Source of the DNA: a virus
DNA length: 27,098 nt
Virus record (IMG/VR): IMGVR_UViG_3300037847_004510
Span: 4,867 to 31,964 of that record
Strand: one strand, 5' to 3'
Shown: positions 1 to 27,098 of the stretch, one piece after another
Layout: every line of letters starts with the position of its first letter
Numbering within the stretch: the stretch's first letter is position 1
Position numbers and translations under genes: made by a program
Notes under the pieces: model-generated
What the model was told of the DNA's origin: nothing
The model's database searches: none
The model's input: the letters and a program-made list of their open reading frames with translations, nothing else

Positions 1-10
1 CGCTACCATC

Positions 11-265
11 ATGGCGAACGTGATATCACAGGATAACCACCTCAGACGTAGACACGCTTTACTTAGATACGAACACGACAAGTTGAAACAGTTGGCTCTT
101 GATACAGGATTAATCAAACGTAACGGAAGACCTTGTGGTGAATGTAAATCAACTAACACTGAAACAGAAGGGCAGGCACATTACGTTGAAGGTGGGTATG
201 CTCAGGCTTGGTCAAGACAATGTTTTGACTGTGGACACTGTGAAGTCGGAGGTGACAGATTTTGA
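11..265 (+). CDS. Small zinc-ribbon protein, possibly 5' truncated
   Basis: An 84-residue reading from ATG at 11. The frame stays open to the window edge and no Shine-Dalgarno is visible in the ten bases before the ATG, so the true start may lie outside the window. The basic N-terminal half (residues 1-40, rich in Arg, His and Lys) is followed by two cysteine pairs, C42-x2-C45 and C71-x2-C74, with an extra C77. That is the pattern of a four-cysteine zinc ribbon. Its stop (TGA 263-265) overlaps the TTG start of the next gene, and its last codons contain that gene's ribosome binding site, so the two are probably translated in a coupled way. I do not recognise a family; nucleic-acid or protein binding is the usual role of such ribbons. 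Confidence 0.7.
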   Translation: MANVISQDNHLRRRHALLRYEHDKLKQLALDTGLIKRNGRPCGECKSTNTETEGQAHYVEGGYAQAWSRQCFDCGHCEVGGDRF

Positions 266-1068
266 CAATAATGATATACACAAAGAAAGAGATAAGATAT
301 CACGAAGAGTATGGAGAATCAGTAACGAACAATCGTTTCTTGTTCACTGAGAAGGATGCTATATGTGAGCAAGTGGCTGAACTAATTAGGGATAGGTTAC
401 ACGCCCAACATCCCAGCGAATGGAATCGTTCTGGTTATGATTACTTAGTTGAACCTACTTACGCAAAGGCTTGCATGTGGATGAACATCCTTGTTAGTGA
501 AGATATGAAGAGACTGTTAAATGTCTTTGACTCAAAAGATGGTATTCTTTGGGTTGAACTACCTAGTAAGCCTAAGAAATGGATTAACTACGTGGATGAG
601 AATGGAAAAAAGAGAACAATCTGCAAGGACATTAGTTACATGGAGGATACTGAGTTCGGGGGCAAAGAACAACAAGATGCTCATGAAGAACTGCCTCACT
701 GGGAAGTAGTAATAGATAACCTACCAACCATACTCAAGGAATCGAAACTTAGAACTGTCGATTTACACTTTCGATGGGATGACACTAACTACTATGGGGG
801 CTACATTCACGACATACATATCATCAGTAACGGACTTACGATAAGTGATTTCAATACTGATAAATTCAAGGCCGTCAACAAAACAGCCTACACTTATCAA
901 ACGGAAAAGTGGATGAAGGAACAGGAAGAATACTATGCCTCTGAACAATACAAGAAGGACAGACAAGAAGAAGCAGAACGCATGGCTGAACTTCAAACTG
1001 CTATGCTTGAAGGAGGCTACACTTCTTACGCTGACAATGGCGATGGCACTTACTCCATGTGGAGATGA
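262..1068 (+). CDS. Hypothetical protein, 268 aa, TTG start
   Basis: No family recognised. I chose the TTG at 262 because GGAGG at 248-252 lies 9 nt before it and TTGA overlaps the upstream stop. The next in-frame ATG (271) would be 18 nt from that site. The protein is charged and rich in Tyr and Trp, with no signal peptide or membrane segment. A Glu/Lys-rich helical stretch (about residues 212-252) precedes a short C-terminal segment ending GDGTYSMWR. The middle has many aromatic and acidic residues and looks like a soluble alpha/beta domain. It is the second-last gene of the operon that runs in from the left. Confidence 0.75.
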   Translation: MTIMIYTKKEIRYHEEYGESVTNNRFLFTEKDAICEQVAELIRDRLHAQHPSEWNRSGYDYLVEPTYAKACMWMNILVSEDMKRLLNVFDSKDGILWVELPSKPKKWINYVDENGKKRTICKDISYMEDTEFGGKEQQDAHEELPHWEVVIDNLPTILKESKLRTVDLHFRWDDTNYYGGYIHDIHIISNGLTISDFNTDKFKAVNKTAYTYQTEKWMKEQEEYYASEQYKKDRQEEAERMAELQTAMLEGGYTSYADNGDGTYSMWR

Positions 1069-1072
1069 CTGA

Positions 1073-1501
1073 ATGATGAAATACTTTCCAAGAGGTGACA
1101 AGCATTACCTCAAAGATAACATCAACCATCTGGTTGTACGCAAGGAACTCTTCAAGCGTTTCAAATCTAAAGGATGGACTACACGCACGACAGATGATGT
1201 CGAGTGGATTAGTACAGACGAAGGCTCGCAGGCAGATGAGTTCGTCAAGCAGATGTACCAAGCATCGATAGACTACCCGCATCTATGTGAGTCCACATAT
1301 ATTGCTCAAGAGTTTGCACATGCTATTGATGCCGTCGCACTCAAGGCACGGCAGACAGGAACTATCATCAAATCAGAATCAGACACACTGGAGGTTCTGA
1401 CAACTCTAGGCTACGAAGTACGAGAGACTAGCCCGAACTGTTTCGAGTTGATGATGAGTGATGATGATTTCAAAACGGTGACTGAAAAGTTTCGGTTATA
1501 A
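1073..1501 (+). CDS. Hypothetical protein, 142 aa
   Basis: A small soluble protein of unknown function. The start ATG at 1073 is directly followed by a second ATG at 1076. GGAG at 1061-1064 lies about 8 nt upstream of the first, so either could serve. The N-terminal third is basic and the C-terminus acidic (DDDFKTVTEK). No cysteine pairs, membrane segments or P-loop are visible. The end of the gene is unusual: its final Leu and stop codons (TTA TAA, 1496-1501) form the TATA box of the promoter for the next operon. Confidence 0.75.
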   Translation: MMKYFPRGDKHYLKDNINHLVVRKELFKRFKSKGWTTRTTDDVEWISTDEGSQADEFVKQMYQASIDYPHLCESTYIAQEFAHAIDAVALKARQTGTIIKSESDTLEVLTTLGYEVRETSPNCFELMMSDDDFKTVTEKFRL

Positions 1502-1515
1502 AAGACCAATAAAGA
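1496..1515 (+). promoter_or_regulatory. Repeated viral promoter core, copy 1
   Basis: The 20-mer TTATAAAAGACCAATAAAGA occurs identically at four places in the window (1496, 6361, 13116, 17182), always 27-36 nt upstream of the first start codon of a gene block. TTATAAAA fits an archaeal TATA box. The upstream bases ACTGAAAAGTTT are in the position of a B-recognition element. The conserved GACCAATAAAGA downstream of the TATA box is not part of a standard archaeal promoter. The first base of the transcript would be expected near 1521-1527, giving a short leader that still contains a Shine-Dalgarno (AGAGG 1518-1522). Confidence 0.8.
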
Positions 1516-1530
1516 AGAGAGGTTGAGAAA

Positions 1531-1605
1531 ATGAATGATGAATATACATTAAAGATAAGAATAGAAACAGATGAATGGATATACGAAGAATACACGGAGG
1601 CTTGA
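1531..1605 (+). CDS. 24-residue leader-position microprotein
   Basis: The first open frame after promoter copy 1: an ATG at 1531 placed 8 nt after AGAGG, then 24 codons rich in acidic and aromatic residues (ends YEEYTEA). Its last codons (GAG GCT TGA) contain the GGAGG that serves the next gene, with a three-base gap to that ATG. The same junction, GGAGGCTTGAAAATG, recurs at 1904-1918. It may encode a real peptide, or it may be mainly a translated leader that delivers ribosomes to the following gene. Nothing in the sequence separates these options. Confidence 0.5.
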   Translation: MNDEYTLKIRIETDEWIYEEYTEA

Positions 1606-1607
1606 AA

Positions 1608-1913
1608 ATGAGGAAGACGAATTGGGATATAGTAAATGCAATCCAAAGAAGTGCTAAAGTTACAAGTGATGATACTTGGGAAACATTACTTGAAGTAGAC
1701 CCTTTGTACATATCAGATAAAGACTTAGTAGAACAAATTGCTGAAAAAAGAAGGCAGTTAACTTGGTATGAAATGTTCAGAAAATGGTTAGGTACACCTA
1801 CAAATATGGATGATAAGGATTGGTATGCATTTCGTGATGATTCCATAGAAAATAACCGACTACAATTAAAGAAAATGCAAAAAGAATATCAAAGCAAAAT
1901 AAAGGAGGCTTGA
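1608..1913 (+). CDS. Hypothetical protein, 101 aa
   Basis: Unknown function. The ATG at 1608 follows GGAGG (1596-1600) with 7 nt spacing. An in-frame ATG at 1575 lies inside the preceding microgene and lacks such a site. The protein is highly charged, mostly helical by eye, with a Trp-rich central part (TWYEMFRKWLGTP) and a Lys/Gln-rich C-terminal helix. It has no cysteines and no membrane segment. It ends EA* through the same GAGGCTTGA junction as its upstream neighbour. Confidence 0.75.
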   Translation: MRKTNWDIVNAIQRSAKVTSDDTWETLLEVDPLYISDKDLVEQIAEKRRQLTWYEMFRKWLGTPTNMDDKDWYAFRDDSIENNRLQLKKMQKEYQSKIKEA

Positions 1914-1915
1914 AA

Positions 1916-2266
1916 ATGAATAAACTAGAAGAGAAAAGATTAGAGAGACAATTGAGAAACGGAGACGGAAAAAGAATGGTAGCATGGAACGCCTACTTGG
2001 TGGATGACATCGGCGTTATCTGGTGCATGGTGCATGAAGATGATGCAGGGTACAAACCAATGACAGGTAAAGGCTTACTGTCTTCGCCGTGGTATCTCGC
2101 ATACAAATCCAGTTACACCGACGAAGATGGAAAGGTGGACTACAAGTCTATGTTTGAAGCAGCCGAGGAACTCGTTGACAAGTACAACTGGGATAACGGT
2201 TACACGAAGAAGGAAGTTGGCGAAGTGGTAGCGTCATCAATCAGAGCATCGAACTTGAAAGTATGA
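1916..2266 (+). CDS. Hypothetical protein, 116 aa
   Basis: Unknown function. The ATG at 1916 is 7 nt after GGAGG (1904-1908). A TTG at 1910 would extend it by two residues but is less well placed. A basic N-terminal helix (EEKRLERQLRN) is followed by a compact Trp- and Tyr-rich region (WNAYLVDDIGVIWCMV, later WYLAYKSSYTDEDG). This could be a small beta domain of the kind seen in many phage accessory proteins. One cysteine, no metal-binding pattern. Confidence 0.75.
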   Translation: MNKLEEKRLERQLRNGDGKRMVAWNAYLVDDIGVIWCMVHEDDAGYKPMTGKGLLSSPWYLAYKSSYTDEDGKVDYKSMFEAAEELVDKYNWDNGYTKKEVGEVVASSIRASNLKV

Positions 2267-2286
2267 ATAAAAAGGAGGAAAAGAAT

Positions 2287-3453
2287 ATGAAAGAAACAAT
2301 GAAGAATATGAATGAAGAACAAAAGCAAGAAATCCGTGAGTGGTTGATTCGTGGGGAGGGCCACAGTGTCGCACCCATGAACTACTACACGGACATGGGA
2401 TTACCGGCATCGTTCCTTGAACCAATGGTCAAGCGAACTTGGTCGAACTTTGTACAAGTACCCAAAGGCATCACCAAGATTGGTGAAGATGAAGTAAGCG
2501 GTCAACCTATCGGTTGGGCTGCTGACAAAGAGCGATGGGTTTTCTTGCTCACACCAGAGCAACAAGAGGACAATTACATCGACGTTAGATGGAGTACAAA
2601 CATCACATCCAGTCGCATCAAACAAATATGGGTTGACGCTGATGAGAGAAGTGAACACTTAGAAAACAAACTCGACGAGCATGACGAGGATTACATCAAC
2701 TATCTTAAGAAAGAATACGACGTGCATCCTGACGCCAAGTATTGGTCTTACAAATACAATAAAGAATATTACAATTACAAAATCGAATTCAAAGTACCAA
2801 TCGTACCCAAAGTCAATTGGAAAAATGAACACGCCGTAGACGATGTTGAAGAGGGGCAAGGTCACTTCCTTGTCAAGTACGATGGCACGAAGCGCACTGA
2901 TTTCATCCATGCAAACAAGGCTGCTTGGCATCACAAGAATGCATCGAAGAAACCTATCACCAAGAAGGCAGCAACCGAGTGGGTTCGTGAAAAACTGGAT
3001 GAAGAACCAAGCATCTCTACCATAATTGGTAGGCTCGACATTGATTTCAAAATCGACGGTAAGCGAAGACCAATCAAGGACATCGCTCAAGACTACTGGC
3101 AACAAGACCGAGACGAAATCGAATACCACAAAAAATCTATAGAACGCATTACTGCGACTTGTCCAGACATTATCGATTTCCTCAAGAGTACAAAGAACGT
3201 ACCTATCGGTTGGATTCACGAACGGTTCCATCCGATGGGCTTCAGGGATGTCATGTGGAACAACAACTTCATGATGCCGTGGGTCGATGGTATTGGTTCT
3301 ACTAGAGTCATCAAAGCACTAGCAGATTCACTTGGCGTTGACCTCACTGAGCATCAAACACTTGGTCGTGGTTCAACGGCCAGAGCATACGGCAAAGCCG
3401 TACTCAAATACCTTGAGGAAGAATGTGACTTCGCACAATTATGTAAAGCATGA
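2287..3453 (+). CDS. Hypothetical protein, 388 aa
   Basis: A large protein I do not recognise. The ATG at 2287 is preceded by GGAGG at 2274-2278 with 8 nt spacing. The longer in-frame start at 2263 would place that site inside the coding region. The protein is hydrophilic, rich in Lys, Asp, Tyr and Trp, with no membrane segment, P-loop or cysteine cluster. The C-terminal part (about residues 300-388) contains PIGWIHERFHPMGF and a Gly/Arg/Thr-rich stretch (LGRGSTARAYGKAVLKYL) that could bind nucleic acid or nucleotide, though no named motif fits. One of three large unknowns (with 3967-5049 and 6837-7820) that make up much of the accessory region. Confidence 0.75.
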   Translation: MKETMKNMNEEQKQEIREWLIRGEGHSVAPMNYYTDMGLPASFLEPMVKRTWSNFVQVPKGITKIGEDEVSGQPIGWAADKERWVFLLTPEQQEDNYIDVRWSTNITSSRIKQIWVDADERSEHLENKLDEHDEDYINYLKKEYDVHPDAKYWSYKYNKEYYNYKIEFKVPIVPKVNWKNEHAVDDVEEGQGHFLVKYDGTKRTDFIHANKAAWHHKNASKKPITKKAATEWVREKLDEEPSISTIIGRLDIDFKIDGKRRPIKDIAQDYWQQDRDEIEYHKKSIERITATCPDIIDFLKSTKNVPIGWIHERFHPMGFRDVMWNNNFMMPWVDGIGSTRVIKALADSLGVDLTEHQTLGRGSTARAYGKAVLKYLEEECDFAQLCKA

Positions 3454-3465
3454 GGAGGAATAAAT

Positions 3466-3843
3466 ATGGTAATACAAGTAGGAGATAAAATAAAACCGGA
3501 AGACGATAGAGAACGCAAGGCGATGACTGACGATGAGGTAGGTCTCATCACAAGATTCAACTGGGCGTTGAAGATAGGCGACAGTGGTAGTAGTGGAGAG
3601 AAACAATTAGTAAAGTTAATTCGCACTATAATTGAATCAGGAATGACCACTGCTGCGATTGGAAGATTCGACCCCAACTATGCTCGACGAGTTTGGAACT
3701 TGTTAGACAACAAGGAGTTACTCAACGCTCTCGCCAGAGAATACTGGTGGGGAGAAGGCCACATAGATTTGGAGAACGGTGAGATACTGTTGTCAAAGAA
3801 ATGCTACGGTCTATCGGGGTCATACGAAGGTGATGAAGAATGA
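3466..3843 (+). CDS. Hypothetical protein, 125 aa
   Basis: Unknown function. The start at 3466 has GGAGG at 3454-3458 with 7 nt spacing, directly after the upstream stop (TGA 3451-3453). The middle (about residues 45-90) is helical and contains a possible helix-turn-helix-like stretch (GMTTAAIGRFDPNYARRVW), which I would not assert without a profile search. The C-terminus is acidic (EGDEE*) because its last codons carry the ribosome binding region of the next gene, whose ATG overlaps the stop. Confidence 0.75.
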   Translation: MVIQVGDKIKPEDDRERKAMTDDEVGLITRFNWALKIGDSGSSGEKQLVKLIRTIIESGMTTAAIGRFDPNYARRVWNLLDNKELLNALAREYWWGEGHIDLENGEILLSKKCYGLSGSYEGDEE

Positions 3844-3974
3844 GTTTTGAGACAGCGAAAAATGGAAAGATGATTTACTTGATGATGGTACACTCTGGAT
3901 TCTTAGAGGGTGAACTAACCGAAGAGGAAACTCAAATGGTATTGAAAGCGTTAGAAGGTGAAACAAATGAGTAA
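3840..3974 (+). CDS. 44-residue hypothetical microprotein
   Basis: A short gene. Its ATG (3840) overlaps the stop of the preceding gene in the ATGA manner, and its 3' end overlaps the next gene by 8 nt. The peptide is amphipathic, with a Met-rich hydrophobic middle (MIYLMMVHSGFL) and an acidic second half (EGELTEEETQMVLKALEGE). The pattern suggests two helices, and the second half faintly resembles EF-hand-like acidic helices, which I do not claim. Support for its being real comes from the overlaps at both ends, which keep the gene stack continuous. Confidence 0.65.
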   Translation: MSFETAKNGKMIYLMMVHSGFLEGELTEEETQMVLKALEGETNE

Positions 3975-5049
3975 CATAAGAATGAGTAAAGAGCAAAAGA
4001 ACGAACGAAAATTGAACGATGTAATACGTTTTCAAAAAATATTGAGAACTAGCGTATATCAACTGTTCATGCAAACTAAGAACAAGAAAGGGTGTGTATG
4101 GGACACTATGGACGAATATCATGAATACGTCGCAAGTAACTACATCGGGCCAGACCAATACAAACCGACCCGAGGCCGGTCACATGGGAACACATTCCAA
4201 CTCAAAGCCGATTCGATAATAAGGAATTGGAGAGCGGGTAAGTCAGAAGGCAACGAGGAAAGATACTCCGACGAATTCATAACCGAGTTTATGATGAAGT
4301 GGGTTCAACAATACGTCGCCGTCATGTCATCTGTTGAAAGGATGAAAGGTATTAGGGAAGGAATCAGAAGTGTATTCTTGAATCAAGACTTGCTTAAAAC
4401 ACACGGCAGGTTTTGTTTGACTTGGAATACCTACCAAGACCCATACCACCATGAGAATATAGTCTTGCGTAAGTCTGCTGGCAAGTCTAAAAGTTCATTG
4501 TGGTTTCCAACACTACCGGATAATCTGGTTAGCAAACTGGAATCGTGGTGCATACTGAAATTGGACGACAAAATCAACGCCAGTGTAAGACGGTCAAAGG
4601 AAGATGCTAACATTCGCAGCATCGGCTACTCTGTCAACAACATAATCAAAAACATGGATTGGATTGATGGTCATCAAACCCAAATCTCTAACATAGCAAC
4701 CACATACGAAAAGGTTGAGGCAGTTGGTGACGCTCTAATCAAGTGGCTTGACACCATGCCAAGCATTGAAGGAGCGGGGGAATACAACGGTATCATTCGT
4801 GTTGACAATCTGAAGCAAGTGATTCAAAGTAGTAGACCTAGCACCAAAGTTGAATCTCTGAACAAGTGTATCGCAACATGTGAGCAAAGCATCGTCGGTG
4901 CTAAGAAGTCAATTCAACAGTGCCTTAACCGGCTCGACATGACAATCGAACAGTGGCATACAACTGCCAAGGACAGGAGTAACCTCTTGACAACGATAGA
5001 CCTAGACAAAATCAAGACGGTTCTAGGCTACGGAGATGAAGAAGAATGA
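3967..5049 (+). CDS. Hypothetical protein, 360 aa, helical
   Basis: Unknown function. The ATG at 3967 has AAGGTG at 3955-3960 with 6 nt spacing; a GTG at 3958 is the alternative. The N-terminus (residues 1-50) is very basic. The region around residues 55-85 (GPDQYKPTRGRSHGNTF) is Arg/Gly-rich. The second half is mostly helical, with four scattered cysteines near residues 299-320 (CIATCEQS, QQCLNRL) and probable coiled-coil character. It ends GDEEE*, again carrying the next gene's upstream region. A structural or DNA-associated role is possible but not supported by a motif. Confidence 0.75.
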   Translation: MSNIRMSKEQKNERKLNDVIRFQKILRTSVYQLFMQTKNKKGCVWDTMDEYHEYVASNYIGPDQYKPTRGRSHGNTFQLKADSIIRNWRAGKSEGNEERYSDEFITEFMMKWVQQYVAVMSSVERMKGIREGIRSVFLNQDLLKTHGRFCLTWNTYQDPYHHENIVLRKSAGKSKSSLWFPTLPDNLVSKLESWCILKLDDKINASVRRSKEDANIRSIGYSVNNIIKNMDWIDGHQTQISNIATTYEKVEAVGDALIKWLDTMPSIEGAGEYNGIIRVDNLKQVIQSSRPSTKVESLNKCIATCEQSIVGAKKSIQQCLNRLDMTIEQWHTTAKDRSNLLTTIDLDKIKTVLGYGDEEE

Positions 5050-5074
5050 TTGACACAGACAAATACAAAGGACA
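5032..5074 (+). repeat. 43-bp perfect direct repeat, copy A
   Basis: Positions 5032-5074 and 5367-5409 are identical over 43 bases. Each copy spans the end of one gene (codons for GDEEE*), the ATGA overlap, and the first codons of the next (MIDTDKYKG). A third, diverged copy at about 5645-5680 keeps the first 16 bases exactly. The copies are 335 bp apart, one gene length, so the repeat marks a tandem duplication. Confidence 0.95.
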
Positions 5075-6346: not shown

Positions 6347-6360
6347 CTGAGAACTTTCAG

Positions 6361-8058: not shown

Positions 8059-8415
8059 ATGAATAGAGAAGAAGCGATAGAGAAACTGAAAGAAGAAATA
8101 AAACCGAATAGCACGCTTTACACGCAGTTGGAGCATGTCACGAAGTCGGGCATGACCCGCTTCATCAAGGTGCGTCAAATCAAAGACGACTACCCTTATG
8201 ACTGGACTTACATTGTAGCGAAAGCGTTGGATTGGAAATACAGCGACAAGTATCACGCCATCAAAGTCGGCGGCTGTGGAATGGACATGGGCTTCCATAT
8301 CATCTACACTCTTGGTCGAACTCTATGGCCTGACGGTACACCTGAACCACATGGTAGGCGCAACGGTGAGCCTGACTCTTGTGGCGGCTACGCAATCAAT
8401 CACAGGTGGTTATGA
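8059..8415 (+). CDS. Conserved phage protein with SGMTR and GCGMDMGFH motifs
   Basis: 118 residues; ATG 8059 follows GGAGG (8047-8051) by 7 nt. The order LYTQLEHVTKSGMTRFI (about 18-36), IKVGGCGMDMGFHIIYTLG (about 68-86), and C-terminal CGGYAINHRWL matches a small protein found in many unrelated phages and usually left as 'hypothetical'. The conserved Cys-Gly-Met-Asp-Met and the terminal GGYxxxHRWL suggest an enzyme active site or metal site. I know of no assigned function. Its presence supports a viral origin for the window. Confidence 0.8.
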   Translation: MNREEAIEKLKEEIKPNSTLYTQLEHVTKSGMTRFIKVRQIKDDYPYDWTYIVAKALDWKYSDKYHAIKVGGCGMDMGFHIIYTLGRTLWPDGTPEPHGRRNGEPDSCGGYAINHRWL

Positions 8416-9068: not shown

Positions 9069-9236
9069 ATGTCAGGACAATACAGACGAACGGCGATTGC
9101 ACTAAGCGTAGCGAGAAAAGATTTGAAGAAACTCACAGCGATGTTAGAAGCATGCCACGAGGCAAACTTACTCAGGATGCAGGCATTGAAAGATGCAGGT
9201 ATACCTGACCCAGTAACGGAAAGTGAAGAAGAATGA
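9069..9236 (+). CDS. 55-residue helical microprotein
   Basis: ATG 9069 has GGAGG at 9056-9060 with 8 nt spacing. The peptide looks like a helical hairpin: a basic amphipathic helix (SVARKDLKKLTAMLEACH), a second helix (EANLLRMQALKDAG), then an acidic tail. The stop overlaps the ATG of the SNF2 helicase gene (ATGA), so its product may be made in step with the helicase. Small helical partners upstream of helicases are common in phages, but no binding is shown here. Confidence 0.6.
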   Translation: MSGQYRRTAIALSVARKDLKKLTAMLEACHEANLLRMQALKDAGIPDPVTESEEE

Positions 9237-11227
9237 TGGAGACAGTAACAGTCGAGATGTACAAAGACCAATACGGTGAACGTGTTGGCTTACGGTACAG
9301 ATACAATCCTGACACCAATCAGGTACTCAAAGAAAGACTTGGCTTTCCCAAGTTTAAGTGGGACAGTGAGAAGAAACTCTGGAGTGTACAGGCTTACCCA
9401 CAAGTGGTAGCAGAAGCATGCGAGATACTCGATGAGTTGTCTTACGACACCAGTATCATCAGAACCTACGTGCAAGATTTACCTGCTGCTCCAAGGCAAG
9501 ACTGTTGGACAAAGGTAAAGCGCACACGATTGTATTTGCACTGGCCCTTCATACCTGACGCAGAACTCAGAGACTCGGTACGTCTGGCTGTCAGAAGTAT
9601 CAGTGGTCGTAAGTTCCATGCCGAAGAGAAGTGCTGGTCGATACCTGTCGCTCAGGCAAGAACCTTGTATGGTTTGCTGAGTGACATCTATCCATCGCTT
9701 GCAGATGCCATTGTTGAGAACGAGCAAGTCAGTGAAGAAGTCGAGAAGAGTATTGAACGAGTGGAGATAAGTGGTGCTGCTGAACTTTCAGATAAGAGAA
9801 TGGAAGAGGTCGACCAACTTCTGAAAGGTAAGTTCCCCGAAGGTCTTGACCTCTATCCGTTCCAGAAAGTTGCAGTCGCCTTCGCCAACATGAGCCAAGG
9901 TCGATGTTTGATTGGGGATGAAATGGGAATTGGAAAAACGATTTCGACTATTGGTTATGCAGCCATCCATCCTACAGACAGACCGGCAGTGGTCGTCTGT
10001 CCAGCGAACGTGAAGTTCAATTGGAAAAAGGAATTGAACAGATGGCTACCTAACGAAGAAGTGCAGGTAGTCGAATCAGGAAAACAAGAAATCGAAATGA
10101 CGGATTTCGTAATTATTAATTATGACTTGATGCACAAGAAGCAAGATGAACTCAGAGCAATCGCTCCTAGGCTCATGGTTCTTGACGAGAGTCATTACAT
10201 CAAGAACTCAGGTAGCAAGAACAAGCCTGTACAAAGAACGGTAGCAACCATCAACGTCGCACGTTCGACACCCAAGGTGATTGCATTGTCAGGTACAGCG
10301 ATATCGAGCAGACCGAAAGAGTTCTTCAACACACTTAATCTCATGAGGCCCAATCAGTTCTCATCGTTCTGGGACTTTGCACAGAGATACTGTGACCCTT
10401 ACCATGATGGATTCGGTTGGAACTTCGACGGGGCATCCAACATACTTGAACTCAATGAGAGGACTCGTGACTTGTGCATACGTCGTCTCAAGAGTGAGGT
10501 GCTTCCTGAACTACCTCCGAAGACTCGTACATTCATACCAGTACATTTGACAAGGAAAGAGAGAAGCCCATACGATTCAGCACAGGACAGTTGGTATCAG
10601 AGAATCGACAGTTTCTACATGGACGGTGCTCCTCTTCCAAAGGGTATCATGCTGAACATGATTACAGACCTAAGACATATCTGTGGTCAAATCAAAGTCA
10701 ACCATGCAGTCGATTGGGTCAGTGAATATCATGACCAGACTGGCAAACCCATCGTCGTGTTCACACATCATCGTGATGTACTTGCTCGGATGGCAGAGAA
10801 GATTGAAGCAAAGGGTATGAAAGTGAACACCATATCTGGAGATACAAATTCAAAGAGCAGACAAGAGATAGTTGATGACTTCCAAGCGAACAACATCGAT
10901 GTACTCATCTGTAATACAATTGCGGCTAAAGAGGGTATCACTCTCACTGCCGCTGACACAGTTCTCTTTATCGAAAGAGAGTGGGTTCCCACCGACGAGG
11001 AGCAAGCAGAAGACCGTGTGTATCGTATCGGCCAAGAGAGCCAGCACGTACACGCAGTCTACTTATCAGTCGCCGGTACAATCGATGAGCACTTTGACCG
11101 AGTGGTTGCTGAGAAGCGAGCAGTTGTCAAAGCCGTGCTCGACGGAGGTAACGTGGAGCAAAGGAAAGGTTTGGTCGCAGAATTAGTAAAGCGTCTGAAA
11201 CAAGAAAGAGGATGGGAAATCAAATAA
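9233..11227 (+). CDS. SNF2-family helicase, SMARCAL1-like with N-terminal HARP-like repeats
   Basis: 664 residues. SNF2 ATPase motifs in order: motif I GDEMGIGKT (about 228-236), motif II DESH (about 318-321), motif III LSGTAISSRP (about 354-363), and in the second RecA lobe FTHHRDV (about 505) and DRVYRIGQ (about 592-599). The N-terminal 160 residues contain two similar units, FPKFKWDSEKKLWSV and ISGRKFHAEEKCWSI. They resemble the HARP domain of SMARCAL1/HARP annealing helicases. SMARCAL1-like enzymes use ATP to rewind DNA and remodel stalled forks, so a fork-protection or recombination role is likely. ATG 9233 overlaps the upstream stop; ATG 9236 is equally possible. Confidence 0.9.
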   Translation: MMETVTVEMYKDQYGERVGLRYRYNPDTNQVLKERLGFPKFKWDSEKKLWSVQAYPQVVAEACEILDELSYDTSIIRTYVQDLPAAPRQDCWTKVKRTRLYLHWPFIPDAELRDSVRLAVRSISGRKFHAEEKCWSIPVAQARTLYGLLSDIYPSLADAIVENEQVSEEVEKSIERVEISGAAELSDKRMEEVDQLLKGKFPEGLDLYPFQKVAVAFANMSQGRCLIGDEMGIGKTISTIGYAAIHPTDRPAVVVCPANVKFNWKKELNRWLPNEEVQVVESGKQEIEMTDFVIINYDLMHKKQDELRAIAPRLMVLDESHYIKNSGSKNKPVQRTVATINVARSTPKVIALSGTAISSRPKEFFNTLNLMRPNQFSSFWDFAQRYCDPYHDGFGWNFDGASNILELNERTRDLCIRRLKSEVLPELPPKTRTFIPVHLTRKERSPYDSAQDSWYQRIDSFYMDGAPLPKGIMLNMITDLRHICGQIKVNHAVDWVSEYHDQTGKPIVVFTHHRDVLARMAEKIEAKGMKVNTISGDTNSKSRQEIVDDFQANNIDVLICNTIAAKEGITLTAADTVLFIEREWVPTDEEQAEDRVYRIGQESQHVHAVYLSVAGTIDEHFDRVVAEKRAVVKAVLDGGNVEQRKGLVAELVKRLKQERGWEIK

Positions 11228-17217: not shown

Positions 17218-18144
17218 ATGAATCTGAGAGAAAAGTACCGACCAAAGACTTTGACCGACCTCGTCGGTTGTACTGACTTCGTCAAGTCAGCGTCAGGTTG
17301 GGACATCGATTCTTGTCCATCCAACATTCTCTTGGTTGGCCCTCCCGGTGTTGGTAAGACCAGTGCTGCCATGGCACTCACAAGAGACCTACAAGGCGAA
17401 TACTTTGACCCCATGAATTTCAGAGTATCCAACGCCAGTGATGAAAGAGGCATTGACTCAGTGCGAGAACTCAAGCGAATCAGTCGTCAAAAGGGACTAG
17501 GGGTATCTCGTCGTATTGAATTCCTCGATGAGTTTGAGAGTTTCACAGCCCCTGCTCAAAAAGCCCTCAGACAAATCATGGAAGAGAGTCACTCAAGTTG
17601 TATATTCATACTGGCCGCTAATGACATCGGTCCAATCCACAGTGCAATCAGAGACAGATGCTTGACATTCTTTTTCAACCCAATCGACTATCGTGACACC
17701 GACAGACTGGAGCACATAGTTGATGCAGAGGGCATGCCTCATCAGTGGAAAGACATGCTCCCTAACTTAATCAAATTCACAAACGGAAGCCTCAGACAGG
17801 CTATCGATATACTTGACAGCCTTCCTAAAGAAGGAGATGCTTTACAAGAGAGCATCAAGCGAGATACACAGTATCTCAACAAAGCCGCATTGAACCTCAT
17901 GGGAAGCGACTTCCCTATGGTCACGGCTTATCTCAAACAGGCCCTTGAGTCAGGTAACTCAAGGTTTGGAGTTCTCAAAGGACTCCGTTTCCGTGCCAAA
18001 CCCCTCATGGAAAGTGAGGAAGACTGGCACAATTTCATGCTCACATACGGTGAATTCGTTATGATGGCCACACATTGGCCCGATGATGATGAATCGTTTG
18101 TGGAATACTTTATAGCAAAAATGAAGAAAAATATGGAGAAATGA
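17218..18144 (+). CDS. rfcS: RFC small-subunit-like clamp loader ATPase
   Basis: 308 residues, close to but slightly shorter than archaeal RFC-S. The opening REKYRPKTLTDLVG is the RFC box. Walker A GPPGVGKT is at 41-48, the RFC signature NASDERGID at 72-80, Walker B IEFLDE at 100-105, sensor-1 Asn at 135. The SRC motif of clamp loaders is RDRC (145-148), keeping the Arg finger. It would load the sliding clamp onto primer ends using ATP. No large subunit is encoded in the window, so it either works as a homomer or borrows the host RFC-L. First gene of the replication operon. Confidence 0.93.
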   Translation: MNLREKYRPKTLTDLVGCTDFVKSASGWDIDSCPSNILLVGPPGVGKTSAAMALTRDLQGEYFDPMNFRVSNASDERGIDSVRELKRISRQKGLGVSRRIEFLDEFESFTAPAQKALRQIMEESHSSCIFILAANDIGPIHSAIRDRCLTFFFNPIDYRDTDRLEHIVDAEGMPHQWKDMLPNLIKFTNGSLRQAIDILDSLPKEGDALQESIKRDTQYLNKAALNLMGSDFPMVTAYLKQALESGNSRFGVLKGLRFRAKPLMESEEDWHNFMLTYGEFVMMATHWPDDDESFVEYFIAKMKKNMEK

Positions 18145-21278: not shown

Positions 21279-21280
21279 AC

Positions 21281-21439
21281 ATGGAATGCAGTATATGCGG
21301 CAGAAGCGTTTTCTCCGAACACTTAGTTGACGGTGACTTTTGTATTGATTGCTGGGATAGCGATTACTGTAAGAAATGCGGTGCAAAGATGGTACTTCCA
21401 TTAGAGCACTCGCTAGTGTGCAAAGGTGAAAAAGAATGA
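21281..21439 (+). CDS. 52-residue zinc-ribbon microprotein between clamp and PolB
   Basis: ATG 21281, two bases after the clamp stop, with GAGGAGG at 21267-21273. Seven cysteines in 52 residues: C3-x2-C6, C21-x2-C24, C30-x2-C33 and C47. That is enough for two zinc ions or for one ribbon plus a hairpin. Its stop overlaps the PolB start (ATGA), so the two are probably made in fixed ratio. This placement makes a polymerase- or clamp-binding role attractive, but no motif proves it. Confidence 0.7.
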   Translation: MECSICGRSVFSEHLVDGDFCIDCWDSDYCKKCGAKMVLPLEHSLVCKGEKE

Positions 21440-23784
21440 TTATCGATACTTTTCGACCAGACCCCGAAGGCCCCGACCATATCTATAAGAGATGGCGTGA
21501 TGAAGAAGGGAACTTGGTTGAAGAGTTCGTACCTAACTTCAAGCCTTACTTCTGGATATCAGCCGAAACGTCGGTGAAGTATGTAAGAAGAGTGCTCGAC
21601 CAATTCCCCGGCTCTGACATCGATTGGAATGACACGGCCAGTGGTCTAAGAGACAACGAAGAACTGGTCAAAGTATACGCTTATCGACACAGCGATATAC
21701 GAGAAATGGCGAAGCGTTTCAGGAAAACATGGGAAGCAGACATCAGTCTCGTTGACCGTTATCTAATTGACAACGTCAAAGAGATGCCCAAATGGAAACC
21801 TCGTGTATGGCACTTCGATTTAGAGTGGGACCCTGAAACTGACCAGACTACTGTTATGGCTGTAATTGACAGTTACACGAATCGCTACGTTGCATTCTGT
21901 TGGAAGAAAGATAACCCCAACGGATTATACGACATGGATGTTCATGAAGAAGAGAGAGAAATCGAGTACGAAGTGAACGGAGTCATGACCAAGTTCTATT
22001 ACGAAAGACATCTCTATGGTTCTGAACAAGAGATGCATGAGGCTTTTATGCACTATCTGGAGGTATGCAATCCTGATATCCTCGTGGCCCACGCTATCAT
22101 GTGGGCTGACCTTCCCCATCTTATTCGCAGAGTCAAGGACTTTAGGAGACTAAGTCCTCTTGAGCGTGTGCTCAAGCCTAGAAAGGGCTCTTATGATTAC
22201 GTTGACCAACCAGTGCTTGGTCGACTATGCTTTGATACTGCTGCTCCCGTAAGAAGCGGCAGCGGCTTTGAACGTGTCTGGAAAGACAGCGGTAAGCCTC
22301 AGTTGAAAAACCTCAAACTAGATACCATTGCTCAAGCATGTAATCTAGGTGGTAAGTTCGACATGGATGTATTTACTGGATGGACAGAAAGGTTCGACGA
22401 CTACGTTGACTATTGTATGCAAGATACACTGTTACTCAAGAAAATAGATGAGGGTAACCACGTTGTCAACTTCTTCTTATCACTACAACAACTGTGCGGT
22501 GTAAGTTTCCGCTCTTGTCACAACGTCACAAGATTTGCACGAGGGCTTCTCCAAAGAAGAACTGATTGGAAGGCACCGACTCGTAGCACACAAGAGAAAC
22601 AAGAATACGAGGGTGCGTTCATCCCACCACCAAGACCGGGTAGGTACGAGGGCGTTGCCTGTGTGGACTACAAGGGTCTGTATCCTTCATTGATATTGTC
22701 GCACAATCTTTCATGGGAAACACAGGTGCCCAAAGATTTAGCCGGTGAAGAAAACATCAGACAGTTACCAGATGGTACGTGTTGGATTCAAGGATGCGAC
22801 GCTCTACTACCGAGTATCGTTACTGAGATGTTTGAACTACGTGACATGTATAAGAAGAAAATGCGAGAGTCCGAGACCGAAGATGAAAGAAACGGTTGGA
22901 ACACATTACAACTAGCGGTCAAGCGTGTCATGGCTTCTTTCTATGGCATGACTGCCAGTGCACACTGGGGCTGGTCTGACTTTGACATAGCCTCCGCTAT
23001 CACAGCCTGTGGACGACAGGCAATCAGATTCCTTATGGAAGAATCAGAAAACCAAGGTTACAGTGCTCTTTACGGGCACACTGATTCAGCCTTTGTACAA
23101 GTGCCATTTGATGAAGCAACGGCACTCGCCAAGCATCTTACTGAAACCGTTCAGCGTGAGCACGAGGCGAGTCATCTCATTGTTGAGTTTGAAGCATACA
23201 TGCCCTACTGGATTGTAGGAGGAAAGAATCTGTACTACGGTATATGTTCTTACCCACCAGAAGACGAAGGTAAGGTAAAGAGTGCAAGATGGGGCAAGAT
23301 AAGTACACTCGCCCCTATATCTAAGAACCTTGAGAACGATGTGCTCAAAGCCATCTGTTCTGGAGCAGACGAGGAAGAAGTCATTAGTATGGTCAGACCT
23401 CTAGCGAAACAAATCATGAGAGGGGAGGTCGAGCCAAAGCAGATAGCAACTACCACTCGTTTACAAAAGAAACTCCGAGATTACTCGGACACGACTGGTG
23501 GGGCAGTAAAAGCCGCTCGATTTTACAATCAACATCTTTCTCCCAAACAGAAGTTAGGGGAGGGTGATAGCGTCAACTGGGTGTATGTGATTCGCACACC
23601 GAATGGTATGCCTCCTATTGACGTAGTTGCATTTGAAGAGTTGAGTGATTTAGATGGTTTCGTTTTGGATTATGACAAAATGGTTGACAAGTTGGTTAAG
23701 TCGAAAATTAAGCCCATCTTCCAAGCCTTGAACTGGGATTTGGATAGGGCGAGTGGGGCAGCGATGCCTAAGAAATATTGGTGA
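21436..23784 (+). CDS. polB: Family B DNA polymerase with 3'-5' exonuclease
   Basis: 782 residues, a usual length for archaeal PolB. Exo I DLE (D128, E130) and Exo III YCMQD (Y326, D330) are present, and Exo II fits NPDILVAHAIMWAD (about 212-225), so proofreading looks intact. Polymerase motif A is DYKGLYPS (D411); motif B is KRVMASFYG (K496 to G504); motif C reads YGHTDS (H548, D550) instead of the usual YGDTDS. D550, the second Asp, matches the essential metal ligand; the first Asp is replaced by His. It copies the viral genome with the clamp and loader encoded just upstream. ATG overlaps the zinc microprotein's stop. Confidence 0.96.
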   Translation: MIIDTFRPDPEGPDHIYKRWRDEEGNLVEEFVPNFKPYFWISAETSVKYVRRVLDQFPGSDIDWNDTASGLRDNEELVKVYAYRHSDIREMAKRFRKTWEADISLVDRYLIDNVKEMPKWKPRVWHFDLEWDPETDQTTVMAVIDSYTNRYVAFCWKKDNPNGLYDMDVHEEEREIEYEVNGVMTKFYYERHLYGSEQEMHEAFMHYLEVCNPDILVAHAIMWADLPHLIRRVKDFRRLSPLERVLKPRKGSYDYVDQPVLGRLCFDTAAPVRSGSGFERVWKDSGKPQLKNLKLDTIAQACNLGGKFDMDVFTGWTERFDDYVDYCMQDTLLLKKIDEGNHVVNFFLSLQQLCGVSFRSCHNVTRFARGLLQRRTDWKAPTRSTQEKQEYEGAFIPPPRPGRYEGVACVDYKGLYPSLILSHNLSWETQVPKDLAGEENIRQLPDGTCWIQGCDALLPSIVTEMFELRDMYKKKMRESETEDERNGWNTLQLAVKRVMASFYGMTASAHWGWSDFDIASAITACGRQAIRFLMEESENQGYSALYGHTDSAFVQVPFDEATALAKHLTETVQREHEASHLIVEFEAYMPYWIVGGKNLYYGICSYPPEDEGKVKSARWGKISTLAPISKNLENDVLKAICSGADEEEVISMVRPLAKQIMRGEVEPKQIATTTRLQKKLRDYSDTTGGAVKAARFYNQHLSPKQKLGEGDSVNWVYVIRTPNGMPPIDVVAFEELSDLDGFVLDYDKMVDKLVKSKIKPIFQALNWDLDRASGAAMPKKYW

Positions 23785-23788
23785 TAAC

Positions 23789-23977
23789 ATGAGTAGCATA
23801 GAAGATACAGTTTGTGAGAAGATACAGCAAAGAGCAGAATTAGGAAAGAACAAATACGGAGTAACAATGGAGAGAGGCGACCTTAAATTCGTAGAATGGT
23901 TAGTCCATCTCCAAGAAGAATTGATGGATGCAACAGTGTATCTACAGCGTATTATCGAAGAGGAGGGAGGCGAATGA
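23789..23977 (+). CDS. MazG-like NTP-pyrophosphohydrolase fragment/homologue, 62 aa
   Basis: ATG 23789, four bases after the PolB stop. The peptide has KIQQRAELGKNKYGVTMERG, then FVEWLVHLQEELMDATVYLQR. This is the pattern of the short phage MazG-like/DUF-type proteins: a Gly-x-x-Lys-Tyr-Gly turn, then a helix with EExxD (EELMD) that binds Mg and a nucleotide. Full MazG domains are about 100 residues, so it is a minimal form and must act as a dimer or tetramer if active. It would hydrolyse NTPs or modified dNTPs, cleaning or shifting the nucleotide pool beside the polymerase. Confidence 0.6.
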   Translation: MSSIEDTVCEKIQQRAELGKNKYGVTMERGDLKFVEWLVHLQEELMDATVYLQRIIEEEGGE

Positions 23978-24969
23978 GCGACAGAGATTGGAGTGCATAT
24001 GCTAAGTCGTCCTACATTTACAAAGAGAAGGACTATCTACGGATAACTAAAACTAGCCTTACCACTGATTTTGATTTCTGTCCAAGACAATACGAATACA
24101 AGCGTATACACCGCCTACCAGAGCCCGGTACTGATGCAATGGTTAAGGGTACGAACGTACACGATGCGATTGAGAAATACTATGACAATGCATTACCAGT
24201 GCTCGATGAACTTCATACACTTGTACAAAGAAGTAAGATGGACGAAGCACTTGAACTGGCTCTGAGCGTTATACCAAAGAAGGAATACAAGTTAGGAGAA
24301 GAGCCTAGTATTAGGCAAAGACTACTTTGGGATTTACAGCGACTCAAAGCATCTGGTAAAGAAGACTACTTACCTATCATCAATGAGTCAGAGATTCACG
24401 CTTTTGTTGAGGAGAAGATAACATTCAACGGAGAAGAGTACGTTATCCCTGTACACTATGCAGGAAGCATTGACCGTGGTTACAAAGCCGATGAAGACGG
24501 TGTTGCTTTGATGGAGTTGAAAACTGGCAAGTGGGTACAGACTAAGAATCGTGAGGGCGATTGGCAAGACAGTAAGTTCAAGTTGAAGTCAATGAGAACT
24601 GAAATGGCGTTTTACAAGAAACTACTCAAAGTGGCCGACCATGAGTTTCAGAATGTCACTCACTGGGGCTGGGTGTACCCATCTGGCACAGTCGATAACC
24701 TTGACCCTCTGAACAAATTTGGCTACGAGCAAAGAGCCATCAATCGCATTTTTTACGAGCCTTGCACTGGTCGTCGAGGTACGACCTATGAGAAGGCTGT
24801 TGAAAAACTCAAAGTGGCACTGTTGACCGCTTACCTTGCTAATGACTTTCCTACAAGTCCTAGCAGCGGTAAGTGCGCTTGGTGCAATTTCAAGCCGATA
24901 TGTCCGGCATGGGGTGGTTCTAATGACCCCCAAGAATATCTTGATAATTATACAACGGAGGAAGAGTGA
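23974..24969 (+). CDS. RecB/Cas4-like PD-(D/E)XK nuclease with Fe-S cysteines
   Basis: 331 residues from ATG 23974, overlapping the upstream stop, with AGGAGG 7 nt before it. Nuclease core: His63 in NVHDAIEKYY, D167 in GSIDR, and ELK (E181, K183) in LMELKTGKW, the RecB/Cas4 order. C36 (FCPRQYEYK) together with C301, C304 and C310 (CAWCNFKPIC) is the one-plus-three cysteine pattern that holds a 4Fe-4S cluster in AddB and Cas4. It probably trims DNA ends for recombination or genome processing. No CRISPR array or cas1 is near, so a spacer-acquisition role is unlikely here. Confidence 0.9.
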   Translation: MSDRDWSAYAKSSYIYKEKDYLRITKTSLTTDFDFCPRQYEYKRIHRLPEPGTDAMVKGTNVHDAIEKYYDNALPVLDELHTLVQRSKMDEALELALSVIPKKEYKLGEEPSIRQRLLWDLQRLKASGKEDYLPIINESEIHAFVEEKITFNGEEYVIPVHYAGSIDRGYKADEDGVALMELKTGKWVQTKNREGDWQDSKFKLKSMRTEMAFYKKLLKVADHEFQNVTHWGWVYPSGTVDNLDPLNKFGYEQRAINRIFYEPCTGRRGTTYEKAVEKLKVALLTAYLANDFPTSPSSGKCAWCNFKPICPAWGGSNDPQEYLDNYTTEEE

Positions 24970-25223
24970 TGAATAAAAGCATGTTGAGTAGAACAATAGA
25001 GACGCTATTGGCACCTGTCTTTGACCGAAGTGTTGAGGTGAACTTTTCACATATCGGTAAAGATAAGGACTATAGTATCACTATCCAGAAGACATTGTAT
25101 GAGTTTGAAGAAAACAGCAACGGGCCCAAGGGACCAATGTATGTTACTTTGAACACATACTTGTTACAGGATACAGAGAATCTATTGAAAACTCTCGGAG
25201 AAATAATCGAAAGCAGGAAGTGA
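24969..25223 (+). CDS. Hypothetical protein, 84 aa
   Basis: ATG 24969 overlaps the nuclease stop (TGATG), with GGAGG at 24957-24961 at 7 nt. An N-terminal helix (SMLSRTIETLLAPVFDR), then strands (SVEVNFSHIG, YSITIQKTLYEF), and a C-terminal helix (DTENLLKTLGEIIES). It looks like a small alpha/beta domain, perhaps an adaptor between nuclease and primase, but I recognise no family. Confidence 0.7.
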   Translation: MNKSMLSRTIETLLAPVFDRSVEVNFSHIGKDKDYSITIQKTLYEFEENSNGPKGPMYVTLNTYLLQDTENLLKTLGEIIESRK

Positions 25224-25227
25224 GCAT

Positions 25228-26337
25228 ATGAAAATAACCTTTGATTTTCCAAGGGAAGTTATGGAACTTGGAAATGAGAAGGGTAGAGGCTTCCGTAAAA
25301 TCGTCGAAAGCAGTAGCGACCTAGAGAGATACTGGGAAGGTAAGAACGGCGTGTCCAACGCCTTCATGACCGTGTACGGCTATCGTGCAACCAAGCCTCC
25401 TTTTAACAAAAGAGTTGACTTGCTAACGCCGATTGTCAGGCATTTCGTTATGGACTTTGACCCAAAGGACTTTCGCCAGCGAGATAGACCAAATGTTGAC
25501 ATCGAACGTGCTTTAGACCAAGCACTGGTGCTTCATCGCCATTTACTCAAGGAAGACATCCATCACGGTGTCTGGTACAGTGGCGGTGGCTTCCACGTAT
25601 GGGTCGGATTGGACAAGCCGTACATGCCTAGCGATGGTAATCACCTATCTGCCATAAAAGATGCAGGTATGAGAGTAGTCAACGACTGGATTCGTGATTT
25701 CAACCTATTCTGCTCTGACCCAGCAGTGCCTTTTGACACAAGTGGTATGATTCGTATACCTAATTCTTACAATTCAAAGCGTGGCCTCTGGTCAATACCG
25801 CTAAGCACAAATGATATGGAGAAAGGTATCGATTATATCATGGAAAAGGCCCTTGACGCTCATTTTGGTATGATTCCTTACGGTAACAGTGGGTTACCGC
25901 TTGAAGTAAAGAAGAATTATGGTAAAGCCAGCGTCTTTAGTACGTCATCAGCCCCAATTGACCTTCCTACTGTGTCAATGGACGGTGTAACTATCCTTCC
26001 GTGCCTAAATTCAGCAGCATGTCGACAGGGAAGTAACCCTAGTCACGATGCAAGAGTACAGTTAGTCAAATATTTATCAAAACGCTTGAGAAACTTCATC
26101 CCTGTAGAAAGAGTGAAGCAACAGAAGTTAGAGGAGGACACAGAAACCATCGTCAGTTACATCAAAAGCCTAGACTGGGCTGATTTTGACGAGAGAACAA
26201 CACGTTACCAAGTTAGTACGATTGTAGGGACTGAATATCCTCAGACTTGTGCTATGTTATTCAAGAAAGGTATGTGTCTGGGCAAGTGTAAATACTGGGA
26301 CAAAACTGGGGCAATAATAGAAGAGGTGGAAAAGTGA
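25228..26337 (+). CDS. Archaeo-eukaryotic primase with PriL-like Fe-S C-terminus
   Basis: 369 residues. The AEP catalytic acids are D76 and D78 in VMDFDPKD; the nucleotide-binding SGGGFHVWVGL is at 118-128 with H123; then CSDPAVPFDTSGMIRIPNS (162-180) and KRGLWSIPL (184-192) complete the PriS-type core. The C-terminal 115 residues change to a helical domain with C259, C265, C341, C350 and C354. The spacing ATTxxQVxxI (TTRYQVSTI) and QTCAMLFKKGMC fits the PriL C-terminal 4Fe-4S domain. So the usual two-subunit primase is fused in one chain. It makes primers for PolB. ATG 25228 follows GCAGGAAGTGA. Confidence 0.9.
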   Translation: MKITFDFPREVMELGNEKGRGFRKIVESSSDLERYWEGKNGVSNAFMTVYGYRATKPPFNKRVDLLTPIVRHFVMDFDPKDFRQRDRPNVDIERALDQALVLHRHLLKEDIHHGVWYSGGGFHVWVGLDKPYMPSDGNHLSAIKDAGMRVVNDWIRDFNLFCSDPAVPFDTSGMIRIPNSYNSKRGLWSIPLSTNDMEKGIDYIMEKALDAHFGMIPYGNSGLPLEVKKNYGKASVFSTSSAPIDLPTVSMDGVTILPCLNSAACRQGSNPSHDARVQLVKYLSKRLRNFIPVERVKQQKLEEDTETIVSYIKSLDWADFDERTTRYQVSTIVGTEYPQTCAMLFKKGMCLGKCKYWDKTGAIIEEVEK

Positions 26338-26594
26338 GTCTCTTTTACTGCGATATATGTGAAAGTAGAGTAAAGACCACAAAGAGGTTAATGAAATCCT
26401 ATGAAAAAGACCCAGATTATGTATTAATATGTGTTGTCTGTAGAGATAATGCTCAAGAAAAAGTATTGGATGATATGAGATGTATTGCTACAAAATCAAA
26501 AAGTGGAAAATGCCGAGCATTTAGATTTACTCATAAACATGGTTACTGTAGATATCACTGGAGGAAAATGAATGAAGGAAAAAAGGAAGAGTGA
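26334..26594 (+). CDS. Double zinc-site protein, 86 aa, GTG start
   Basis: GTG 26334 overlaps the primase stop (GTGA), with GAGGTGGA before it. Two metal sites: a ribbon from C6-x2-C9 and C33-x2-C36, then C50-x9-C60-x11-C72-x2-H75, a CCCH arrangement (KSGKCRAFRFTHKHGYCRYH) that recurs in many phage proteins. Basic throughout, so nucleic-acid binding is likely. Its last codons overlap the next microgene by 23 nt. Confidence 0.75.
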   Translation: MSLFYCDICESRVKTTKRLMKSYEKDPDYVLICVVCRDNAQEKVLDDMRCIATKSKSGKCRAFRFTHKHGYCRYHWRKMNEGKKEE

Positions 26595-26691
26595 ATTTTG
26601 GAGAGTGGTGACAGCGATTGTCTTGATTGTTGTACTCATTCCGCTCATCCCATTCGCTTGGCTTTATGATAGAATAAGGGGGAACTTATGA
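26572..26691 (+). CDS. 39-residue membrane microprotein
   Basis: ATG 26572 lies in a different frame inside the end of the previous gene, 7 nt after GGAGG (26560-26564). A basic start (MKEKRKSEFWR) is followed by about 20 hydrophobic residues (VVTAIVLIVVLIPLIPFAWL) and a short basic end (YDRIRGNL). This is a single membrane span, probably with the N-terminus inside. Its stop overlaps the nuclease start (ATGA). A membrane peptide inside a replication operon could anchor the replisome to the membrane, but holin-like or exclusion roles fit as well. Confidence 0.65.
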   Translation: MKEKRKSEFWRVVTAIVLIVVLIPLIPFAWLYDRIRGNL

Positions 26692-27098
26692 TGGCAAAGA
26701 AACCACCACTTATCATCGACTCTAATGAAAGAGGTCCACTCATGAACGCCGTCGTCAGGGCAGCGGAACGTGAAGGCTTCGATATCAAAAGAGAGCATCT
26801 ACAAGGTATGGGCGACTACAAAGTAAGCCATGCTAATATTGAATGCAAGAGCCTTTCCGACTTATTCCAATCAAGTCACAGTGGCCATCTCATGCGACAG
26901 ATAGAGAACCTCGATGCAAATTGCGAAAGAGTGTTTCTTGTTGTGCACGGTGATATCGCTAAGTACGTCTCAATCGCTAAGAAACAGGGCAGGAACGTCA
27001 CATACTCCAAAGTCATGAATGAATTACTTGGTACGTTTGCAAGGATTACAGCAGACTTTGATTGTCATATTTACAGAGCCAAAGACTACAGCGAAGCG
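26688..27098 (+). CDS. ERCC4-type (XPF/Mus81/Hef) nuclease, 3' end beyond window
   Basis: Begins at ATG 26688 (ATGA overlap) or 26691; AGGGGGA is 5-8 nt upstream. The frame is open to the window end (at least 136 residues). Numbered from 26691, IIDSNERGP (8-16) is the N-terminal ERCC4 strand, then GMGDYKV (39-45) and IECKSLSDL (50-58) make the GDxnERKx3D catalytic motif, with the usual Arg replaced by Cys52. SGHLMRQIENL follows as in the family. Such nucleases cut branched or flap DNA, often next to PCNA. No helicase domain precedes it, so it is a stand-alone nuclease form. Confidence 0.88.
   Translation, partial: MMAKKPPLIIDSNERGPLMNAVVRAAEREGFDIKREHLQGMGDYKVSHANIECKSLSDLFQSSHSGHLMRQIENLDANCERVFLVVHGDIAKYVSIAKKQGRNVTYSKVMNELLGTFARITADFDCHIYRAKDYSEA

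Follow-up and report, generated by a model that had tools for sequence, protein, structure and literature searches.

Words of the kind recognized by type II restriction enzymes were completely absent from a 27,098-base stretch of viral DNA, here called the window, that lies inside the 44,510-base virus record IMGVR_UViG_3300037847_004510. Neither the window nor the complete record contained GATC, AGCT, CGCG, or CCWGG (CCAGG/CCTGG), and two of these words, AGCT and CCWGG, were missing from every related virus that could be collected. Escape from host restriction by a virus of the magrovirus kind, infecting Poseidoniales (Marine Group II) archaea, is the best explanation of this pattern, with a probability of roughly 0.78.

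Word Counts in the Window and the Complete Record

Tetramer counts in the window were compared with expectations from a maximal-order Markov model. GATC (106.5 expected), AGCT (84.7 expected), and CGCG (27.4 expected) were not observed, and five GCGC sites were found (30.0 expected). An earlier reading of the same letters (the original prediction) had described GATC and AGCT as absent, CGCG as apparently absent and GCGC as very rare, all of which agreed with the direct counts. Its statement that palindromes had not been lost in general was likewise borne out, since CATG, TGCA, TCGA, ATAT, CTAG, and AATT were present at 75–97% of expectation. Observed and expected counts in the whole record were 0 and 176 for GATC, 0 and 151 for AGCT, and 0 and 49 for CGCG. 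The suggestion that the whole genome had lived under this pressure was therefore true for the 44.5-kb record, and it extends to the entire virus group. CCWGG, a word that had not been named before, was also lost (0 against 49 expected in the record and 21 expected in the window genes).

1..27098, evenly in genes of both strands: region without GATC, AGCT, CGCG, and CCWGG (direct counts and shuffles)
2892..2895 and sites starting at 8358, 9520, 14013, and 24875: the five GCGC sites of the window (direct count)

All 17 GCGC sites of the record occurred in the context AGCGCA or GGCGCA; RGCGCY and TGCGCA each had a count of zero.

The 28 genes of the window were subjected to 1,000 synonymous-codon shuffles. 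Shuffled sequences contained on average 70.9 GATC (minimum 50), 69.7 AGCT (minimum 52), 25.6 CGCG (minimum 13), and 20.9 CCWGG (minimum 8), against real counts of 0 for all four words. In the same test, the control words CATG, TCGA, TGCA, and GTAC remained inside the shuffle range. Codon use changed at the positions where a site would otherwise have formed. Aspartate preceding a codon that starts with C was encoded by GAC in 54 of 54 cases and never by GAT, whereas GAC and GAT each accounted for about half of the aspartate codons elsewhere. Glutamate, lysine, and glutamine preceding CTN were encoded without exception by GAA, AAA, and CAA, never by their G-ending synonyms, and isoleucine following G never used ATC. 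These codon choices demonstrated that the words had been purged site by site.

Avoidance Across the Virus Group

The family B DNA polymerase (PolB) encoded by the window was used as a query to collect relatives. This search yielded 78 viral loci, to which 11 loci of a second clade were added via a distant member, giving 89 loci with a total length of 1.6 Mb. AGCT (about 6,005 expected) and CCWGG (about 1,727 expected) did not occur once in these loci. GATC was absent from 75 of the 89, and CGCG, ACGT, CTAG, TCGA, GTAC, GGCC, and GCGC were each absent from subsets of them. Summed over 20 large or near-complete genomes, the AGCT count was 0 against about 5,680 expected. AGCT and CCWGG form the universal core of the avoidance, GATC is usually included, and ACGT, CGCG, CTAG, TCGA, and GTAC vary by lineage. 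Among cyanophage controls, none of 40 loci was free of AGCT and none of 79 was free of GATC; ten cyanophage loci from metagenomes that had also yielded the present viruses contained all of the words.

Interrupted palindromes and asymmetric sites were missing as well, in a combination particular to each lineage. The lost words thus fell into three types: palindromes like those of type II enzymes, palindromes with an interruption, and some asymmetric sites. Of the 576 interrupted palindromes of the 3+3 type, one or more genomes had lost 26. Eleven of the 26 belonged to the 20 known type II specificities tested (p = 2e-11, with a working list of known specificities rather than the REBASE catalogue). 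The 11 matches correspond to the specificities of BstXI, DrdI, Tth111I, PshAI, AhdI, EcoNI, XmnI, BsaBI, BglI, DraIII, and Bsu36I. Strand-biased avoidance in the style of type III systems was ruled out, as no 5- or 6-mer was missing on one strand only. The asymmetric 5-mer CCAGA/TCTGG, for which no recognized specificity could be named, occurred 0–4 times, against about 50–130 expected, in 13 of the 20 large genomes.

Turnover of Avoided Words Between Lineages

On the PolB tree, the minimum number of changes was nine for ACGT, nine for CGCG, six for CTAG, three for TCGA, and two for GTAC; the AGCT/CCWGG core did not change anywhere. Comparison of close relatives demonstrated that the purge was fast and proceeded by point mutation. 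None of the 22 ACGT sites of locus L036 was kept in L040 (85% identity), and 1 of the 74 GTAC sites of L016 was kept in L018 (86% identity), against about half of the control palindromes. Over four pairs of relatives with 78–86% identity, the lost motif was kept at 0 of 22, 0 of 27, 1 of 74, and 0 of 79 sites, and control palindromes at 36–54%.

No gene was present in all ACGT-lacking genomes and in no ACGT-keeping genome; the best associated gene was found in 7 of 14 of the former and 0 of 6 of the latter. Gene gain was ruled out as a cause of ACGT loss, since no gene cluster was associated with it. A small methyltransferase-like viral gene with an NPPY motif (L121:18036-18671, minus strand; also in L106, L137, L126, L337, L435, L438, and L442) crosses between two distant virus clades. 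It was found in nine loci without TCGA, ACGT (one site in L437), and CTAG, as well as in L443, which contains TCGA. As a correlate of TCGA loss this gene was not used: the association held for 9 of 10 loci in a wider search, with L443 as the exception, and its sign was opposite to protection.

Retention of GATC in a Methyltransferase-Encoding Clade

One clade, which comprised 10 of 50 virus records, several of them fragments, retained GATC at roughly 0.2–0.35 of expectation in its large genomes. A Dam methyltransferase (PF05869) was encoded in 3 of the 50 records and an N6/N4 methyltransferase (PF01555) in 4; all of these belonged to the GATC-keeping clade, against 0 of the 40 other records. 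In L115, the Dam gene spans 1180-1692 and the N6/N4 methyltransferase gene 28-786. No virus-encoded C5 methyltransferase was found among the 50 records. Retention in this clade depended on flanking bases: CGATCC, CGATCT, and CGATCG were present at 1.01–1.03 of expectation, and the other seven GATC contexts at 0.01–0.31, with TGATCA at 0.01. On the simplest reading, the viral methyltransferases would protect CGATC-containing sites. The restriction of GATC to CGATC[C/G/T], with TGATC contexts nearly gone, was observed in G024, G027, G029, G047, and G049 (L115-L120, L138-L140, L146-L151, L157-L159), and this flank rule was not seen in host DNA.

A link between the presence of Dam and retained GATC has been described for haloarchaeal tailed viruses (PMC8651126). 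Dam-encoding archaeal tailed viruses of the phiCh1 type keep GATC, which is lost where no Dam-type methyltransferase is encoded (PMC8651126), and the present viruses may follow a similar pattern. They differ in that retention is partial and follows the flank rule, with CGATC[C/G/T] kept and TGATC lost.

Gene Content and Probable Host of the Virus

The following genes were identified in the window and, for the last entry, elsewhere in its record.

9233..11227, plus strand: SNF2-family helicase (PF00176, 4e-33)
17218..18144, plus strand: AAA+ ATPase, clamp-loader-like (PF00004, 8e-13; PF13177, 2e-8), putatively similar to the RFC small subunit
21436..23784, plus strand: family B DNA polymerase (PF00136, 2e-33), the query for relatives and the basis of the tree
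23896..24969, plus strand: PD-(D/E)XK (Cas4-like) nuclease (PF12705, 9e-15)
26688..27098, plus strand: ERCC4-domain nuclease, running past the window end (PF02732, 3e-10)
G000:C1:3490-4440 (L079:3490-4440): two-domain ArdC-like anti-restriction protein (ArdcN plus zincin metallopeptidase)

The ArdC-like gene lies upstream of the window, between 1,377 and 427 bases ahead of its first letter. The encoded two-domain protein resembles known ArdC anti-restriction proteins, with the difference that it is encoded here by an archaeal virus. Since a homologue was found in just 2 of 20 large relatives, the window's record included, ArdC does not replace site loss in the group.

Outside the window, the record encodes a thermosome-type group II chaperonin (Cpn60_TCP1), whose closest cellular counterpart was that of a Poseidoniales genome (39% identity). 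Magroviruses are tailed viruses of Poseidoniales archaea with genomes of 90–110 kb. Consistent with the Magrovirales, the present group has its own replisome with PolB and a clamp-loader-like gene, a chaperonin, and largest relatives of 96–109 kb. It differs from the Aoguangviridae, which have been described with GroEL, in the thermosome type of the chaperonin. The GenBank phage collection yielded neither a near relative nor a reference genome of a magrovirus. The record appears to be a portion of the genome of a tailed, magrovirus-like virus, with a presumptive family assignment, and Poseidoniales are the likely hosts, as suggested by gene content, the thermosome match, and the word depletion shared with these archaea.

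Searches of cellular genomes revealed no provirus and no PolB relatives, and no provirus or CRISPR link to a host was obtained. Contig C28 of the Poseidoniales-binned genome G185 (L240, L241; contigs C28 and C61) carried genes for a D12 methyltransferase and a protein resembling clamp loaders; this contig looks viral and is a possible direct host link. At many gene junctions of the window (e.g., 5046, 5381, 5647, and 8053), the upstream protein has EEE or DEE at its end and the following gene begins within the overlap, often as MNM. The glutamate codons apparently also serve the following gene as its ribosome-binding sequence, GAGGAGG.

Word Depletion and Restriction-Modification Genes in Poseidoniales

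Tetramers were ranked in 274 kb of Poseidoniales DNA from 20 contigs, one of them masked. The lowest ratios among the 136 tetramers were those of AGCT (0.47) and GATC (0.50), followed by CGCG (0.69), and CCAGG (0.70) was among the lowest 5-mers. AGCT was not depleted in other Thermoplasmatota.

Several candidate restriction-modification genes were detected in Poseidoniales genomes. Nucleases resembling Eco47II and EcoRII-C adjoined C5 methyltransferases, a BglII-like nuclease adjoined a methyltransferase, and a Dam-family methyltransferase adjoined an Mrr/NOV_C nuclease. By type, the EcoRII-C-like gene would suit CCWGG and the Dam-family gene GATC. A search with phmmer against PDB with two host nucleases and one methyltransferase assigned no specificity. 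In addition, a highly conserved N6/N4 methyltransferase bearing a TSPPYN motif was near-core and syntenic, occurring in about half of the Poseidoniales genomes.

L265-L283, e.g., L276:1255-2208, plus strand: near-core N6/N4 methyltransferase, beside a phosphoglycerate kinase-like gene

In a test on 32 genomes, the AGCT ratio was 0.37 in genomes with this methyltransferase and 0.74 in genomes without it (p = 7e-4, kinship uncontrolled). AGCT was the palindrome that best separated the two sets; only its mechanical complement AGCG ranked higher. The near-core enzyme is possibly an orphan methyltransferase for AGCT. Persistent archaeal orphan methyltransferases have been reported for GATC (m6A), AGCT (m4C), CCWGG (m5C), CGCG (m4C), GTAC, and CTAG (PMC10609329), and a freshwater thaumarchaeote was found to be methylated at GATC and AGCT (PMC6329791).

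Probable Restriction Escape and Alternative Explanations

Restriction escape is best supported because the lost words are type II-like, the purge occurred site by site, methyltransferases are encoded in the one clade with retained GATC, and the DNA of the likely hosts is poor in these words too. It accounts for the exact zeros and the type II nature of the missing words, for the speed of the purge and its turnover between lineages, for the exceptional clade with methyltransferases, for the presence of ArdC, and for the depletion in host DNA. In the proposed mechanism, a lytic tailed double-stranded DNA virus of the magrovirus kind would infect Poseidoniales whose population carries a changing pool of type II-like enzymes. 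These enzymes would cut unmethylated GATC, AGCT, CCWGG, CGCG, and further sites. Any entering genome with such a site would risk destruction, and point mutations that remove sites would be selected until none remain. The core set (AGCT, CCWGG, and usually GATC) would be common to all hosts met by the group, and the accessory set (ACGT, CTAG, TCGA, GTAC, GGCC, CGCG, and the interrupted and asymmetric sites) would track host turnover. A virus that gains its own methyltransferase could retain the cognate site.

Several observations weigh against this explanation, and the enzyme looks to be its weak point. No AGCT-cutting nuclease was identified in any Poseidoniales host genome examined, and the best candidate for an AGCT methyltransferase is orphan-like, lying between housekeeping genes with no visible nuclease. 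Of 146 Poseidoniales genomes, most of them draft assemblies, only 16 had a C5 methyltransferase above the family cut-off and only 18 a D12 methyltransferase. The exemption of GATC represents a single change on the tree, a methyltransferase was found in only 4 of the 10 records of that clade (several of the rest being fragments), and some viruses keep CGCG though no C5 methyltransferase was found in them. The depletion of AGCT in host DNA might be a feature of the lineage that has nothing to do with restriction, and host assignment depends on gene content, a thermosome match of 39% identity, and that shared depletion. Either the nucleases would be encoded in islands missing from metagenome assemblies or belong to unrecognized families, or orphan methyltransferases would act in defence. 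The original prediction was partly borne out. Restriction escape, which it had named as the cause, is the best-supported explanation, but host nucleases of the MboI/DpnII-like and AluI-like types were not established. Poseidoniales genomes contained methyltransferases of the Dam family and of the C5 and N6/N4 types, along with several type II nucleases, among which no AGCT nuclease was identified.

A different, rather unlikely explanation is that host orphan methyltransferases mark the sites and that methylated or hemimethylated viral DNA is then recognized by methylation-dependent nucleases, or viral gene control is disturbed, so that restriction of unmethylated sites would not be the main pressure. 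The words of the absent core are the same as those modified by the persistent orphan enzymes of archaea (PMC10609329), and a methylation-dependent Mrr of Haloferax targets methylated GATC (PMC7230728). The near-core TSPPY methyltransferase, with no obvious nuclease beside it, and the stronger AGCT depletion that accompanies it point in the same direction. However, a viral Dam should then worsen matters, yet the Dam-encoding clade keeps GATC, and interrupted palindromes like those avoided here are usual targets of type II restriction, not of orphan methyltransferases. A related, speculative idea is that the core words are marks of conserved marine-archaeal "orphan" methyltransferases that would constitute the self-recognition half of a so far unrecognized, order-wide antiviral system with a nuclease as its partner.

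It is highly improbable that virus-encoded site-specific nucleases degrade host DNA and that matching sites were purged from the viral genomes for that reason. The viruses do encode PD-(D/E)XK and ERCC4 nucleases, and apasvirids have been described with restriction enzyme-like nucleases (PMC12999244), but no gene tracked ACGT loss, and depletion of the same words in host DNA would be left unexplained because a lysed host has no descendants. Biased mutation, codon usage, and artefacts of the assembly or the library can be dismissed as causes: although host and virus share their two most depleted tetramers, exact zeros contrasted with 50 or more sites in every synonymous shuffle, codon choice flipped only where a site would form, closely related viruses lost different words, and cyanophage contigs of the same metagenomes contained all three words.

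Relation to Known Systems and Implications

Elimination of sites and broad avoidance of palindromes are already documented for other viruses (PMC6286503, PMC7230728). Non-temperate double-stranded DNA bacteriophages eliminate orthodox type II sites (Rusinov et al., 2018, PMC6286503); the present viruses do likewise and differ in lacking many specificities at once, with a core common to the examined group. In the HF1 group of haloviruses (Hafunaviridae), GATC and CTAG are wholly absent and other words are absent by lineage, such as AGCT in HRTV-7 (PMC7230728). A recheck of 50 kb each showed that HF2 (L351) lacks GATC, CTAG, and CCWGG, and that HRTV-2 (L352) lacks AGCT, GATC, CTAG, and CCWGG. 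Both groups consist of tailed archaeal viruses with PolB and broad palindrome avoidance. In contrast to the HF1 group, the present viruses are marine, presumably belong to another virus order with other hosts, and have AGCT and CCWGG as their universal core, with GATC and CTAG only accessory. Moreover, GATC is depleted in the DNA of the probable hosts, whereas it is over-represented in haloarchaea (PMC6471742, PMC7230728). The first 50 kb of cyanophage P-SSM2 (L353) lacked CCGG, GCGC, and CGCG.

A full-text literature search found no report of such avoidance in magroviruses. New elements are a core of AGCT and CCWGG lacking throughout the group, the measured turnover among near relatives, the flank rule that retained GATC follows, and a corresponding depletion in the host order; the avoidance is unusually complete, differs between lineages, and has a counterpart in the DNA of the likely hosts. 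All knowledge of these viruses comes from metagenomes, and defence in Poseidoniales is poorly known. The missing words provide a readable record of the enzymes met by each lineage, from which host methylation can be predicted, and the match of the missing core with archaeal orphan methyltransferases makes the function of these orphans directly testable.

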